Source: Deltaproteobacteria bacterium
GTDB lineage: Bacteria; Desulfobacterota; DSM-4660; Desulfatiglandales; Desulfatiglandaceae
Direction of reading: 5' to 3'
NCBI GenBank assembly: GCA_018644785.1
Contig: JABGPV010000163.1
Coordinates: 1-10,511, forward strand
DNA length: 10,511 nt
Every line of letters begins with the position of its first letter. The first letter of the stretch is position 1. The notes under the pieces were generated by a model. It had not been told where the DNA came from, made no database searches, and saw only the letters and a list, made by a program, of their open reading frames with translations. Shown here one piece after another: positions 4,454-10,511 of the stretch. The position numbers were made by a program, and so were the translations under genes.

Positions 4454-7030
4454 ATGAGCCGATTAAACCACGTCTTGGCTACGGATTTCCGTAATCAGGA
4501 CAGCCTGTTACATGTCTGGCGTGAGCGTATTTTCTTCGCAGTTTTCTTAAGCGGGGTCCTCATTGGGGTTGTGAGTTACGTCTCAACTCTCAGCTACGCC
4601 ATAGCCAGAGGGCACCTGTCCAATAGCGCAATCTTCTATACCGCGATTTATGTCTGTGCAATTATCATCTTATTGGTGCGACGTATTCCTTTCTTCGTTC
4701 GTGTCGGAATTGGGCTCTTTATTTTTTATATCCTTGGATTAGCCACTTTACTGACCGTAGGCCCAACGGGAAATGGCAGCATCTGGCTCTTCGCCTTCGC
4801 GGTAACAGCCACTCTTCTACTAGGACTCAGGGCCGGACTCATGGCTTTGGCCTTAAATGTGGGAACTCTATTGATTCTGGGACAGCAAATGAATGCAGGC
4901 CACTTACCGTGGCTATTGAGCGTGCCCTACACGTCAAAGACCTGGAACACCACTTTGATAACCTTTGCGTTTCTCAGTTGTGTAATCGTGATTTCCCTGG
5001 CCGTGCTGCTTCGAAACTTAGAGAAGGCCCTGCAAAAAGAGCAAGCCCTCACCTCGAGGCTGACCTCCATCAATGAACAACTTGAGCAAGAAATCACTGA
5101 GCGGAAACGCGCCACAAACAATCTTGCTGAATCTGAGCAGAAATACAGGACCTTATTTCACGATTCCTTGGAAGCGATGAGTCTGACGCTGGAGGGAAAA
5201 ATCATCGATGTAAATACAGCATGGCTCCAGATGCATGGATTCGAATCCAAGGGAGATGTGGTGGGGATGAATATAACGGATATCATACACGAAGAAGACA
5301 GGAAAATGCTTTTTGACCGTCGAGAAAAATGGCCACATTATGAAGATCGCCTATACGAATTGAGAGACGTCCGACGTGACGGCTCTATCGTAAATGTAGA
5401 GGTTTATTCAAGTAAGATCTCCTTAGAGAACAAATGTTTTATCCTTGCGACAATCCGTGACATCTTGACGCGCAAACAGGCTGAAGAGGTTCTGCGGGAG
5501 AGTGAAGAAAAATACCGAGCCATTCTCGAAAACATCGAAGAAGGCTACTATGAGGTTGACCTTGAAGGAAATTTTACTCTTTTTAATGACGCATTGTGTA
5601 ACATCACCGGGTATTCCAGAGATGAACTGATGGGGATGAAGAGCAGAGACCACATAAATCCGGAGGATATGGAAAAAACATTTCAGGCATTCAACAAAGT
5701 CCACACTACAGGGGAATCGGCAAAAAACGTGGCATGGAAAACTTTGAGGCCGGATGGTTCCGAAAGAGATATAGAAGCTTCTGCATCTCTCGTTAAGAAG
5801 ATAGAAGATCAGCCAATCGGATTTCGAGGTATCATACGGGATGTGACTGAAAGAAAGCTTGCAGAGGAAAACAAAAAGAGGCTCGAAGTCCAAATCGAGG
5901 CCGCCCAAAGGCTGGAGTCTTTAGGCACATTAGCCGGGGGTATCGCCCATGACTTCAACAATCTCCTCATGGGAATCCAGGGACGGACCTCCTTGATGCT
6001 AATGAATATTCATGACGCCCATCATCATTTCGAGCATCTCAAAATCGTAGAAGACTACGTTAAAAATGCCGCAGATCTTACCAAACAGCTTTTGGGTCTT
6101 GCCAGAGGTGGAAAATATGATGTGAATCCCGTGAACCTGAATAAACTTGTCTCGAGGAGCTCCGGGATGTTCGGAAGGACAAAGAAAGAGATCATCATCC
6201 ACTCAAAATATCACAAAGACATTTGGATTGTAGAGGCGGATCAGAGGCAAATAGAACAGGTGTTGTTGAATATCTATGTGAACGCCTGGCAAGCAATGCC
6301 TGGCGGTGGGGAACTCTATCTTGAAACAAAAAATGTCGAAATTGATGAAGATTCCAGCATATCTTATCAGGTGGACCCCGGGAGGTATGTCAAAATATCT
6401 ATCAGGGATGTCGGCGTTGGTATGGATGAAGCGACCCTGCAGAGGATATTTGACCCGTTCTTTACCACCAAAGATATGGGGAGGGGAACAGGGTTAGGGC
6501 TGGCTTCTGCCTATGGGATAATCAAAAATCATGGCGGCTTCATTAATGTCCATAGTAGGAAGGGGCATGGAACCACCTTCGATATTTATCTGCAGGCGAC
6601 TGAAAAGGTGGCAACAGAAGAGAAAGAACAGGATTTGGGAATACAAAAAGGATCTGAAACGATTCTTCTGATAGATGATGAGAAAATGATCATTGACGTC
6701 GTCAACGAGTTGTTAGAGAGATTGGGTTATACGGTTTTTTTGGCCCACAACGGCATTGAAGCCATAGAAACGTACAAAAAAAATTGGGAGAAAATCAATT
6801 TGGTCATCCTTGACATGATCATGCCGGGCATGAGCGGCAGTGATACATTTGACAGTTTGAAGGAGATCAACCCCCATATAAAAGTCGTTCTCTCAAGCGG
6901 CTATAGCATTAATGGTCATGTCAATGAAATATTGAATCGAGGGTGTGTTGGCTTTATTCAAAAACCAATCAAGATGCCCGACCTATCCCAAAAGCTACGG
7001 GAGATCCTGGATGATCGACATAGGGCGTAA
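4454..7030 (+). CDS. membrane-bound hybrid histidine kinase: six TM segments, two PAS domains, kinase core, receiver
   Basis: An 858-residue sensor kinase. Residues 27-187 hold about six hydrophobic helices (near 27-50, 58-76, 83-102, 110-124, 127-143, 167-187) forming an integral-membrane sensor with little periplasmic sequence. A coiled coil (about 188-225) leads to PAS1 (about 226-345) and PAS2 (about 349-470), each opened by an ESE-KYR motif. The dimerisation domain has GGIAHDFNN with phospho-acceptor His499, the type common in PAS hybrid kinases. The ATPase domain shows an N box (N606, N610), G1 DVGVG (652-656), an F box FDPFFTTK and G2 GTGLG (678-682). The C-terminal receiver (about 737-855) has acidic pocket D741/D742, phospho-acceptor D787 in [10 protein letters not shown], and K837. 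All catalytic residues look intact. There is no output domain and no adjacent response regulator with its own receiver, so the partner is unknown. The gene is monocistronic and convergent with the next one. The signal sensed is unknown. Confidence 0.93.
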
Positions 7031-7042
7031 GCAAAGCACAAA

Positions 7043-7065
7043 GGGGGCCAAAGGGATTGCGCCCC
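7043..7065. terminator. inverted repeat between convergent genes, weak terminator candidate
   Basis: GGGGC (7044-7048) and GCCCC (7061-7065) pair around a 12-base loop in the 65-base gap between the two convergent stop codons. On the minus strand it is preceded by TTTT and followed by CTTTG; on the plus strand there is no T tract. It could weakly end transcription of the minus-strand regulator gene, but the evidence is thin. Confidence 0.25.
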
Positions 7066-7095
7066 AAAACCACAGACAGTTTGTCTATGAGCTTT

Positions 7096-8661
7096 TCAGG
7101 GTTCATGATCCTTTCGAGCGTTCCAGCTTTGAGCAGCGTCTTTTCGAATACCCAGACGCTTCATGCGGGAATCAAAGGTGGAACGGTTCAGGGCCGCCTC
7201 GGCTGCCGCCCGAGTGATATTCCATCTGTTTTTTTCAAGCAAGAATAGAATATAGGCTTTCTCAAGGGACTTGAACGTGTGGCCGGAAAACCCGTCGTGT
7301 GGCAACTTGCTTATTTCACTTGGAACCGGTGTATCAATATTCCATTCACGGTCATGTGCCAAAGGATCCTTTTTCGCAGCTGGTTCCTGAATCAGCCATG
7401 GGGGCAGGTCTTCCATTTCCACGGTGTCCCGTGCAGCGGTTACCATCACATTTCGAACCGCATTTTCCAGCTCCCTGATATTCCCTTTCCACGGGTATCG
7501 AACAATATAGTCTAAGGCAGCCGGTGAAAGACGTTTCTGCCTGATATTCAACTTTCTTGCTTCTACTGCAATGAACTGCTTGAGCAGCAACGGGATGTCT
7601 TCCCTTCTTTCCCTCAGCGGCGGAATATGAAGAGAGAGCACATTCAGCCGGTAAAACAAATCTTCCCGAAACCTTTTTTCTTGAATTGCTTTGGTAAGAT
7701 CAACATTTGTGGCCGAAATTATCCTCACATTGGTGCTTTTCTGTGTCGTACTTCCCACAGGCTTTATTTCACCATTCTGCAGCACGCGCAGAATCCTGGA
7801 CTGCAATCCGTAGGGCATATCACCGATCTCATCCAGAAACAGCGTTCCCCCGTCAGACGCCTCAAAAAGCCCCTTTTTGTCGCGATCAGCCCCTGTAAAA
7901 GCACCTTTCATGTAACCGAAAAGCTCACTTTCAAGAAGCGTTTCAGGTATGGCGCTGCAGTTCTGGGTCAGAAACGGCCCGTCCCTGCGCGAACTCTGGA
8001 GATGGAGTTCTCTTGCAAAAAGTTCTTTTCCCGTACCACTCTCACCGGTAATGAGGACAGGATAGTCCGCTCGTGCAAAAACTTTCGTCTTTGCCAGTGC
8101 ACTCTGAATGGGTTCGGCCTGTCCGATTATGGGCGGCTGCGCTTGAAATCCATTGATGATATCTCTTAATGCCTTGTTCTCTTCGACCTGCTTTGTGTAA
8201 GCGGTATAGTTGCCAAGAGCAATGGAACCGACCGAAACAATGTTTTCCAGAAGACCAAGGTAGTCTTTGTCCAGATTGATATCGCTTCCCATATTCGTGG
8301 TATCAATCAGTTCAAGAGCACCGTAGACTTCCCCGGTGTCAAATATCAGGGGAAAACAGACGATAAGGCTGCTCTTGACTTTAACGTCTTTTTCTGCCTC
8401 ACCAAAATGTCGATTGTCCTCCCCCACCCTGCTGATTGTCATACGGCCGTTTTCAATGACCCATCCCACGATGCTCGGTTTTTCATTTCCAATTGAAAGC
8501 CCAAGGACCTTGTCGCTGTCATCACCGATGGCTTCGATGCACGTATATACATTGTCCTGTTTAACCCATATGGAACCCCGTTCAACGTTTTGGAGTTTAA
8601 GAAGGCTCCCCAAGAAAACTTCCAGAATTTTTTCCTTATCAAAACCCGTCTTTTTGCCCAT
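7096..8661 (-). CDS. sigma-54-dependent transcriptional activator, GAF-AAA+-Fis type
   Basis: A 521-residue bacterial enhancer-binding protein that remodels sigma-54 RNA polymerase by ATP hydrolysis. Residues about 5-155 form a GAF domain (GSIWVKQDNVYTCIEAIG, then FDTGEVYGALELID) in place of a receiver, so control is expected through a bound small molecule, gas, redox cofactor or protein rather than phosphorylation. The AAA+ domain (about 175-410) has Walker A GESGTGKE (206-213), the sigma-54 contact loop GAFTGA (253-258), Walker B GGTLFLDE (271-278) and the arginine-finger region FREDLFYRL (331-339). After a linker, residues about 464-505 are a Fis-type helix-turn-helix (ITRAAAEAALNRSTFDSRMKRLGI in part). 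All functional motifs are intact. ATG 8661 is preceded by AGGAGG (8673-8678 on the complement). It is divergent from the small membrane-protein gene, whose promoter is of the sigma-54 type, making that gene the obvious target. Confidence 0.95.
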   Translation of the reverse strand: MGKKTGFDKEKILEVFLGSLLKLQNVERGSIWVKQDNVYTCIEAIGDDSDKVLGLSIGNEKPSIVGWVIENGRMTISRVGEDNRHFGEAEKDVKVKSSLIVCFPLIFDTGEVYGALELIDTTNMGSDINLDKDYLGLLENIVSVGSIALGNYTAYTKQVEENKALRDIINGFQAQPPIIGQAEPIQSALAKTKVFARADYPVLITGESGTGKELFARELHLQSSRRDGPFLTQNCSAIPETLLESELFGYMKGAFTGADRDKKGLFEASDGGTLFLDEIGDMPYGLQSRILRVLQNGEIKPVGSTTQKSTNVRIISATNVDLTKAIQEKRFREDLFYRLNVLSLHIPPLRERREDIPLLLKQFIAVEARKLNIRQKRLSPAALDYIVRYPWKGNIRELENAVRNVMVTAARDTVEMEDLPPWLIQEPAAKKDPLAHDREWNIDTPVPSEISKLPHDGFSGHTFKSLEKAYILFLLEKNRWNITRAAAEAALNRSTFDSRMKRLGIRKDAAQSWNARKDHEP

Positions 8662-8828
8662 TTTGACCCTCTCCTCCTGCTTTGCGGGTTATGAATATCC
8701 TTTTCAAAATAGATAGGAAGATTGAAAGCACGCTTGAAAGATGTTTGCCTTTCATATTCTTTCGGAATTAGACGCAAAACCATGTTCTAAGCTTATACAT
8801 AATACCCCAAAACCACTAGATTCACCTC

Positions 8829-8849
8829 ATATCATAAATTTTACGATAT
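8829..8849. promoter_or_regulatory. 21-bp near-perfect palindrome, candidate enhancer (UAS) for the sigma-54 activator
   Basis: ATATCATAAA (8829-8838) and TTTACGATAT (8840-8849) are inverted copies around a single T, with nine of ten positions pairing. The centre is about 172 bases upstream of the -24 element at 9011, within the usual range for enhancer sites bound by Fis-type domains of sigma-54 activators. It lies between the activator gene and its presumed target. The AT-rich context raises the chance of coincidence. Confidence 0.45.
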
Positions 8850-8945
8850 TTCAACTTTATTCACAGAATAAAATCGGTCTCTCCAGGCCAGTTCACATCA
8901 TTTGAAAAATCTATCTACAGAATCGACGCTACCAAGAAGGCAAAT

Positions 8946-8971
8946 GGTCAGCGCCGGCAGCAAGAATGACC
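8946..8971. repeat. GGTCA/TGACC inverted repeat upstream of the sigma-54 promoter
   Basis: GGTCA (8946-8950) and TGACC (8967-8971) are perfect 5-bp inverted arms 21 bases apart, about two helical turns, 40-65 bases upstream of the -24 element. A second regulator site is possible, but arms this short occur by chance. Confidence 0.2.
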
Positions 8972-9009
8972 CGTACTTATGGACTGGACGTCTCATTCAT
9001 TCTCCTGTC

Positions 9010-9025
9010 TGGCATGTCTTTTGCT
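9010..9025 (+). promoter_or_regulatory. sigma-54 (-24/-12) promoter of the small membrane-protein gene
   Basis: TGGCATG-N4-TTGCT matches the sigma-54 consensus at every defined position, with the invariant GG (9011-9012) and GC (9023-9024) separated by exactly ten bases. Transcription would start near 9036, giving a leader of about 50 bases that contains the ribosome binding site at 9071. The facing sigma-54 activator gene supports it. Confidence 0.8.
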
Positions 9026-9070
9026 CAAACCAAGTCATAACAGCAGTGGCACTTTCCGAAAAAAAAGTAG

Positions 9071-9076
9071 AGGAGG
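9071..9076 (+). promoter_or_regulatory. ribosome binding site of the small membrane-protein gene
   Basis: AGGAGG, followed by nine bases and ATG 9086. This consensus site is the main evidence that this frame, and not the longer overlapping open frame beginning at 8902, is translated. Confidence 0.75.
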
Positions 9077-9085
9077 GTTGCAGTC

Positions 9086-9358
9086 ATGAAAACGAGAACA
9101 GCTATTATCATCAGGATTATCGGGGTTTTGTTGAGTATGTTGGGTGCAGCAATTTTTTGTCTTCTTTTCGTTTTATGGAGTGTGGAAGAATATTCCAGTT
9201 ATTCGGTACCCATTTGGCCCATGGTTCTCGGTATCGGAATCACATTCCTTGGCCTCATATGCGTCAAAACAGGATCAACATCAAACTATGGCCCGCCGGC
9301 TGGAAGCCCGGACCTCAACTCGTCAACCCGTCATCGGATCAAATTCCTCCTTTTCTGA
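9086..9358 (+). CDS. small two-TM membrane protein under a sigma-54 promoter
   Basis: A 90-residue protein that I do not recognise. A short basic N-terminus (MKTRT) is followed by a hydrophobic helix at about 6-31. A short loop with two acidic residues and several Ser/Tyr (32-42) leads to a second helix at about 43-61, then a polar tail of about 30 residues with PPAGSPDLNSS and a basic TRHRIK near the end. By the positive-inside rule both termini should be cytoplasmic, with the loop in the periplasm. There is no enzymatic motif. The gene has a consensus ribosome binding site and a perfect -24/-12 promoter, and it faces the GAF-type sigma-54 activator, so it is probably made only when that activator senses its signal. 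A stress-response or membrane-accessory role is guesswork. Reality of the gene is likely; function unknown. Confidence 0.72.
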   Translation: MKTRTAIIIRIIGVLLSMLGAAIFCLLFVLWSVEEYSSYSVPIWPMVLGIGITFLGLICVKTGSTSNYGPPAGSPDLNSSTRHRIKFLLF

Positions 9359-9482
9359 ATCGATCCGGTCCTACCCCTTGACACCCCCTTGGAAGCCTGC
9401 CTAAATTCACTTAATGTGGAGCAGATGTGACCTCGTTTTCCCTGCCTGTGGGCTACCGATGATATGCCTCCGTGCCCCCAGT

Positions 9483-10511
9483 TTACAACCGTTGAATCAA
9501 ATAAACAAAGACCGGCAACCTGCTTTCCTCCTTGAGTTGATAAAACTGGGGCAAGAGTTCTCTTTTATTGGGACTGTCTTTTAGCGGTGATAAATATATG
9601 GTGCCCTTTGACTTGTTTTTCACATCCGCATTCTTTAAGAGCTCCGCCAGGGACAAATAATGATCAGAGGGTAAATTAGCCCCCATAATAAAATTTCCGG
9701 TGACCTCTATGCGGTTGTACCCGGCATTGATTTCCATCATTTTGCTGAAGGCCTCTTTAACCTGTTCGACGGTCACCGGTTTGCCGATCCCCACAAGCGT
9801 ATTGGCATCAATGGATTCAAACCCGATATTGATATAGGTGTCAAAAGGCAATTCATTCAATTTTTCAAACAGCGTTTCCCCTGCCCCCAAAAAAGAGCCC
9901 ACACTGCCAAAAAGATATAAAAATGGATCTTGTTTCAATCGCTGCTTGAACCCGAATTCTTTATATGCCTGTTGGGCGGCAAAACAGATTAAGTCATCCC
10001 CTGCGGCAAGGGCATCGTGGTTTCCGAGAAACAGGGCATGGTAGTTGGTCCGGTCTGCTCCGAAATGATCTTTCAAGGCCGTGATCTGATCCAGCACACT
10101 CTCTTTCGACCTTTTTCGAAATTTTTGATCTGATTTGACGCAGCAGAATTTACAATGATAAAGACATCCATCGGCAATGGTGACAGGGATAATGTCATAA
10201 TTCACATGCCGCGTGTCAGGGGGGAGTACGGAAATCCTGCCGCCGATGATGTCGTTCAGCCGCTGGAACCGTTCATGAAGCGTTTGGTCATCATTAGCCA
10301 GTATCCGTTTTATGAGATCCTTTGCCCGGGGGTAGAGACCCTTGGAATCCGCCATATACAGATTGGCATATAATTGGGACCATTCGGCCAACGCCATCAT
10401 GACATGGGGATTTGAAAAACATTTAACGTCCCAGACCGGGTTACTGACATACGGCAGACAGGGGAGATAATACTCTCCCATCCAGGAAACAACCCCGTCG
10501 CTGCCGCTTTT
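9483..10511 (-). CDS. radical SAM protein, 5' end outside the window
   Basis: At least 342 residues are visible. The first ATG in the frame is at 10481, but the frame stays open to the window edge and no ribosome binding site precedes that ATG, so the true start is probably beyond 10511. Numbering from that ATG, DGCLYHCKFCCVKS carries the radical SAM CxxxCxxC cluster motif (C106, C110, C113) binding the [4Fe-4S] cluster that cleaves S-adenosylmethionine; C114 is an extra adjacent cysteine. Downstream, ALFLGNHDAL, YINIGFESIDANTL and the GKPVTVEQVKEAF segment match the later strands of the radical SAM barrel in the COG1032/Elp3-like group. The upstream 100 residues show no clear B12-binding motif. 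I see no C-terminal cysteine cluster for a second Fe-S centre. Substrate and pathway are unknown; the gene is convergent with the small membrane-protein gene. Confidence 0.85.
   Translation of the reverse strand, partial: KSGSDGVVSWMGEYYLPCLPYVSNPVWDVKCFSNPHVMMALAEWSQLYANLYMADSKGLYPRAKDLIKRILANDDQTLHERFQRLNDIIGGRISVLPPDTRHVNYDIIPVTIADGCLYHCKFCCVKSDQKFRKRSKESVLDQITALKDHFGADRTNYHALFLGNHDALAAGDDLICFAAQQAYKEFGFKQRLKQDPFLYLFGSVGSFLGAGETLFEKLNELPFDTYINIGFESIDANTLVGIGKPVTVEQVKEAFSKMMEINAGYNRIEVTGNFIMGANLPSDHYLSLAELLKNADVKNKSKGTIYLSPLKDSPNKRELLPQFYQLKEESRLPVFVYLIQRL

Follow-up and report, generated by a model that had tools for sequence, protein, structure and literature searches.

A probable local sigma-54 regulon with a small two-helix membrane protein as a predicted output

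In the stretch of DNA analysed here (10,511 nucleotides, hereafter the window), a sigma-54 activator gene lies divergent from a small ORF for a predicted membrane protein, which raises the question of what drives the small gene. An earlier note on this DNA had proposed the neighbouring activator. We consider a reading of this kind likely, although well short of certain: the locus would be a local sigma-54 system in which the activator, bound at a palindrome, drives the small gene, and the small protein would be the output of a small local regulon. The features that bear on this reading are given below, where L001 denotes a related locus from a scan of GTDB genome contigs (MAG Desulfobacteraceae bacterium isolate BH30).

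7096..8661, minus strand: GAF/AAA+/Fis-HTH sigma-54 activator, 521 aa (Pfam matches, GAFTGA, dN/dS against L001)
8709, no strand: junction; about 3.57 kb present in L001 is missing from the window (blastn of the window against the loci)
8829..8849, no strand: palindrome ATATCATAAATTTTACGATAT, probable operator of the activator (10-base arms; 21/21 in L001, and a 17/21 copy in L001)
9010..9025, plus strand: sigma-54 promoter TGGCATGTCTTTTGCT (pattern match without mismatch; 15/16 in L001)
9071..9076, plus strand: AGGAGG ribosome-binding site (within a 60-base run, 9061-9120, identical to L001)
9086..9358, plus strand: 90-aa small protein with two predicted membrane helices (hydropathy, AlphaFold2, alignment)
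9483..10511, minus strand: convergent radical SAM protein gene that runs off the window (Pfam Radical_SAM, 43.3 bits; common to L001)

The activator proved to be the GAF-AAA+-Fis protein that had been described, on the minus strand and divergent from the small ORF, with all three domains above their Pfam cut-offs. Its AAA+ domain matched Sigma54_activat (PF00158; 230.8 bits, 9.4e-69) as well as AAA_lid_14, and reading of the translation revealed the GAFTGA motif of sigma-54 interaction. The N-terminal sensor matched GAF (PF01590; 24.4 bits, cut-off 22.4), and the C-terminus carries a Fis-type HTH (HTH_8, PF02954; 25.4 bits, cut-off 22), for which the L001 orthologue scored 21.4, slightly under the cut-off. 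Comparison of the activator with this orthologue gave a dN of 0.028 and a dS of 0.118. At E<=1e-150 the activator was found in one of the 85 genomes from the relative's order. The plasmid matches comprised 98 records, and among the best 20 of these the matching was restricted to the interior of the activator gene.

The promoter, TGGCAT-N5-TTGCT, fits the sigma-54 pattern TGGCAY-N5-TTGCW with both the GG and the GC present (the -12 GC at 9023-9024), and its position predicts a transcript start at 9035-9036. The usual sigma-54 consensus has a C at base 6 of the -24 element. The description of this promoter as perfect holds with respect to the pattern, which is matched without mismatch, but is a slight overstatement because the window has T where that consensus has C. 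A matching site arose on the plus strand in 13 of 20,000 dinucleotide shuffles of the gap between the two genes (8662-9085), and for the complete window 1000 shuffles, scored on both strands, put the expected number at 0.029 sites per shuffle; the match exceeds chance. The single difference from L001 falls in the spacer, and both elements are kept. A scan of the relative's genome (6.1 Mb) gave 43 exact matches to the pattern, compared with 7 for the reversed control. Loci were fetched for 30 of the 43 places, and 18 of these 30 have an ORF of at least 40 codons and a ribosome-site-like string within 300 bases downstream, by a loose criterion applied without a control; one of the 18 begins in a manner that we take to be that of PII/GlnB. 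An identical exact sigma-54-like site, TGGCATTTATCTTGCT, was seen in each of five G001 contigs (C7, C25, C97, C105 and C116), and in three of them it lies no more than about 120 bases into the contig, which suggests a repeated element. In the window itself, a weak sigma-54-like site with one mismatch in the GG (TTGCATGTTTTTTGCA, 1512-1527) lies near the start of an ORF for a 925-aa beta-helix protein.

The near-perfect palindrome reported some 170 bases before the promoter is present, with 10-base arms around one base, one arm mismatch and 171 bases from its centre to the promoter. Its score was equalled in 91 of 300 shuffles, so the palindrome by itself is not beyond chance. The intact palindrome in L001 is weak evidence as well, because 48 of the 357 21-base windows of 8709-9085 are also free of mismatches. 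Identity to L001 is 85.8% over 8709-8828, 84.4% over 8850-9009, 91.7% over 9026-9085 and 93.0% in the ORF. A second inverted repeat, at 8856-8872, scores level with the palindrome, but L001 retains only four of its seven pairs. One-mismatch IHF-like sites between palindrome and promoter were absent from the window and from L001, and one was present at L017, a paralogous locus in the relative's genome.

Comparison with L001 changed the picture of the spacer. By blastn, window 7054-8709 corresponds to L001 4407-6062 and window 8709-10511 to L001 9628-11426, the latter at 92% identity; the window left of 7054 had no blastn match to the L001/L019 stretch. The comparative DNA evidence across the gap comes essentially from this one relative genome, in which palindrome, promoter and ORF are all kept. 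The approximately 3.57 kb of extra DNA in L001 holds two genes on the activator's strand. One product, of 674 aa, has a CARDB domain, and the other, of 398 aa, matched no Pfam family; both look like secreted proteins, judging by N-termini that resemble signal peptides. Upstream of the first gene is CGGCATACTCCTTGCT, one mismatch from the sigma-54 pattern, which places the L001 palindrome between two divergent sigma-54-like promoters. Since this operon with its own sigma-54-like promoter shares the gap, the view of the locus as a self-contained module with the small protein as its sole apparent target is not supported. A separate observation in L001 is a 66-base second copy of the 3' end of the activator gene (246-311, 94% identical), located past a gene whose product matches prismane/CO-dehydrogenase.

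The best evidence that the palindrome may be the operator is a second copy, ATATCATAAATTTAATGACTT (L001 6099-6119), which matches it at 17 of 21 positions and lies in the 189-base stretch preceding the activator gene of L001. A match of this quality was equalled in 1 of 2000 shuffles, in a test run after the copy had been spotted by eye. The same test on the gaps of L017 and of another locus in this genome, L015, found nothing (126 and 128 of 500 shuffles as good), and the flanks of the two copies in L001 showed no obvious similarity by eye. Assignment of 8829-8849 to the activator as its operator is plausible. At up to three mismatches the window palindrome was found in the relative's genome at its own place only. 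A degenerate pattern derived from the two copies, which it is thus bound to match, occurred in the 6.1 Mb without mismatch only at these two places, and at three mismatches at five more places versus one control match. At one of the five, a one-mismatch sigma-54-like site lies no more than 150 bases away and falls inside an ORF; the other four had no such site in loci of about 3 kb.

The relative's genome also contains paralogues of both genes. At L017, an activator 63-64% identical diverges from a two-gene operon with a one-mismatch promoter, TGGCACGAATATTGCC, and the second product of this operon is 69% identical to the 398-aa protein of L001. That protein has exactly two matches in this genome at E<=1e-10, one beside each close activator; it was found in 4 of 85 genomes at this threshold and was nearly full-length in G001 only. 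The L017 gap holds a palindrome, TGTTATTTAAT-N10-ATTAAATAACA, equalled in none of 300 shuffles and different from that of the window, to which the best L017 match was 14/21. The HTH regions of the two activators are nearly identical, which, together with the unlike palindromes, argues against any simple reading with a single motif. No common motif emerged when the gap of the window was compared with those of L017 and L015, the best 16-, 20- and 24-base matches being reached by 131-200 of 200 shuffles. Of three small-protein paralogues (L015, L016 and L025), the one at L015 precedes an acyl-CoA ligase-like gene and has a one-mismatch sigma-54-like promoter at 6536-6551 that ends 44 bases before the ATG; the other two had no sigma-54-like site nearby upstream. 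Within L015 6222-6551, two divergent one-mismatch sigma-54-like sites surround an inverted repeat between a CBS-domain gene and the paralogue; this repeat was equalled in 52 of 300 shuffles and was set aside.

The small ORF begins with an ATG at 9086, comprises 90 codons and, as the earlier note had it, follows an AGGAGG. It encodes two hydrophobic stretches, with hydropathy maxima at residues 11-29 and 42-60. AlphaFold2 placed helices at 2-33, 44-65 and 81-89 (mean pLDDT 65.8, with residues 68-83 below 50), and a reading of the charges suggests that both ends are probably in the cytoplasm. Against the one relative available the ORF looks to be under selection beyond chance (dN 0.050, dS 0.157, dN/dS about 0.32). 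Homology search identified 12 homologues among 23 candidates, and a profile search related 49 of 1405 candidates to the small protein at E<=0.01; 37 of these 49 were aligned with the window ORF and the L015 paralogue. The protein matched no Pfam family at or above cut-off and no NCBIfam model at E<=0.001, in keeping with its description as unrecognised. It resembles COPI_assoc (PF08507) weakly, at 20.7 bits under a cut-off of 30, and was not assigned to that family; weak matches at E<=0.01 among the 39 aligned members went to COPI_assoc (3), SNF (11) and SLAC1 (6). Aquaporin, the best of four PDB profile matches at E<=1 (E 0.0094), was judged to be chance. In literature lying largely outside subscription journals, no title pointed to the small protein.

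Among the genomes examined its distribution appears narrow. Within the relative's family 2 of 46 genomes had it, as did 2 of 85 in the order (the set for the class being the same 85), and a wider profile found it in 1 of 395 genomes drawn from the phylum. One of the two genomes, G018, has a truncated match (E 7.1e-5). This relative lies at a contig start (L018 1-120), and the ORF after it, of 344 aa, matched no Pfam family; the ORF beside the truncated gene scored 18.9 bits (E 0.22) and was considered unrelated to it. None of 68 candidate viral stretches encoded a relative, and PHROGs gave one weak match (E 0.003) to a family of unknown function. The radical SAM gene (dN 0.026 and dS 0.154 against L001) lies outside the small gene's transcript because it is on the opposite strand. 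Farther off, two overlapping ORFs in different frames (557-1203) match two halves of one YhhN-family profile, so that this gene looks frameshifted. No Rfam match was found in the window.

Could the small gene be sigma-54 dependent but served by another enhancer-binding protein, with the neighbour mainly serving the secreted-protein operon and the palindrome incidental? The relative has 23 DNA matches to an activator/small-gene query, mostly in the AAA+ stretch, the L015 paralogue has its sigma-54-like promoter while a scan of eight L015 proteins showed no such activator, and both the shuffles of the palindrome alone and its dissimilarity at L017 fit this explanation. The copy upstream of the L001 activator gene argues against it, however, as do metagenome clusters. 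In 3 of 13 activator clusters at >=74% identity (P0013-P0025) the longest contig matches in length the longest one of a small-protein cluster (59350, 2784 and 3393705), which suggests linkage as judged from equal longest-contig sizes only; the longest contigs of P0011 and P0022 are both 2784, leaving no room for the 3.57 kb there if they are one contig. On balance we regard another activator as doubtful.

That the palindrome is instead an autoregulatory site of the activator gene seems distinctly unlikely, and one site could have both roles. The 17/21 copy, in front of the activator gene in L001, overlaps a weak sigma-70-like match on the activator's strand (9/12, scored without a shuffle control, with a second such match at 6075), but the same scan found none on the minus strand of window 8662-9000, and the better, 21/21 copy in L001 is found beside the small gene, with about 3.6 kb separating it from the activator. 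Least probable by far is a fortuitous sigma-54 match, with the small ORF transcribed otherwise or not at all. The reversed control shows that such matches do occur by chance, but the rarity of the site in shuffles, the retention of both elements in L001, the dN/dS of the ORF and the lack of any sigma-70-like match on the plus strand of 8600-9086 all speak against it. For control of the small gene by its neighbour, then, the features kept in L001 and the 17/21 copy stand in favour, whereas the palindrome alone is not beyond chance.

We return to the neighbouring activator, for which we infer the following course. The protein encoded at 7096-8661 would bind 8829-8849, hydrolyse ATP when its GAF domain meets a signal, and open sigma-54 RNA polymerase at 9010-9025 from about 170 bases away; the product would be a short transcript for the two-helix membrane protein. 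The secreted-protein operon of the relative is probably under this regulator as well, so that the small protein is likely to be one output, related to the envelope, of a small local regulon. A more ambitious and rather improbable version is an undescribed, lineage-restricted envelope module, in which a GAF activator subfamily, acting through divergent sigma-54 promoters around one operator, would govern both the two-helix protein of an unnamed family and exported proteins, the small protein assisting or monitoring their export. If the regulon is real, it provides regulation and a likely envelope role for an unnamed small membrane protein family found in relatives of sulfate reducers, along with the prediction of one operator open to direct testing.

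In the phage-shock system, the sigma-54 activator PspF acts with the psp operon and the output is membrane-associated. The AAA+ domain of the window activator matches PspF chains, but the activator differs in having a GAF domain, and scans of five proteins from the window and eight from L001 gave no match to PspA or PspC.

More generally, the available part of PMC3162934 links sigma-54 to the cell exterior, and that of PMC12316311 reports many activators in Desulfobacteria. For Desulfovibrio vulgaris Hildenborough, the available part of PMC4641369 describes single-component enhancer-binding proteins often co-localised with a sigma-54 promoter, regulons of mostly one to four operons, and three GAF-containing members. 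The largest fraction of promoters there lies within 100 bases of the activator site, unlike the roughly 170 in the window, and the regulons described in that part include no small two-helix membrane protein target. The architecture is otherwise of the same kind: DVU2275 has a predicted palindromic site that is AT-rich, DVU3142 and DVU2956 are divergent activators, and GAF members occur as in the window (PMC4641369, same part). This regulatory architecture is itself already established, and the locus most likely represents a local regulon in which a GAF enhancer-binding protein acts with sigma-54, with an ordinary layout and an undescribed target.
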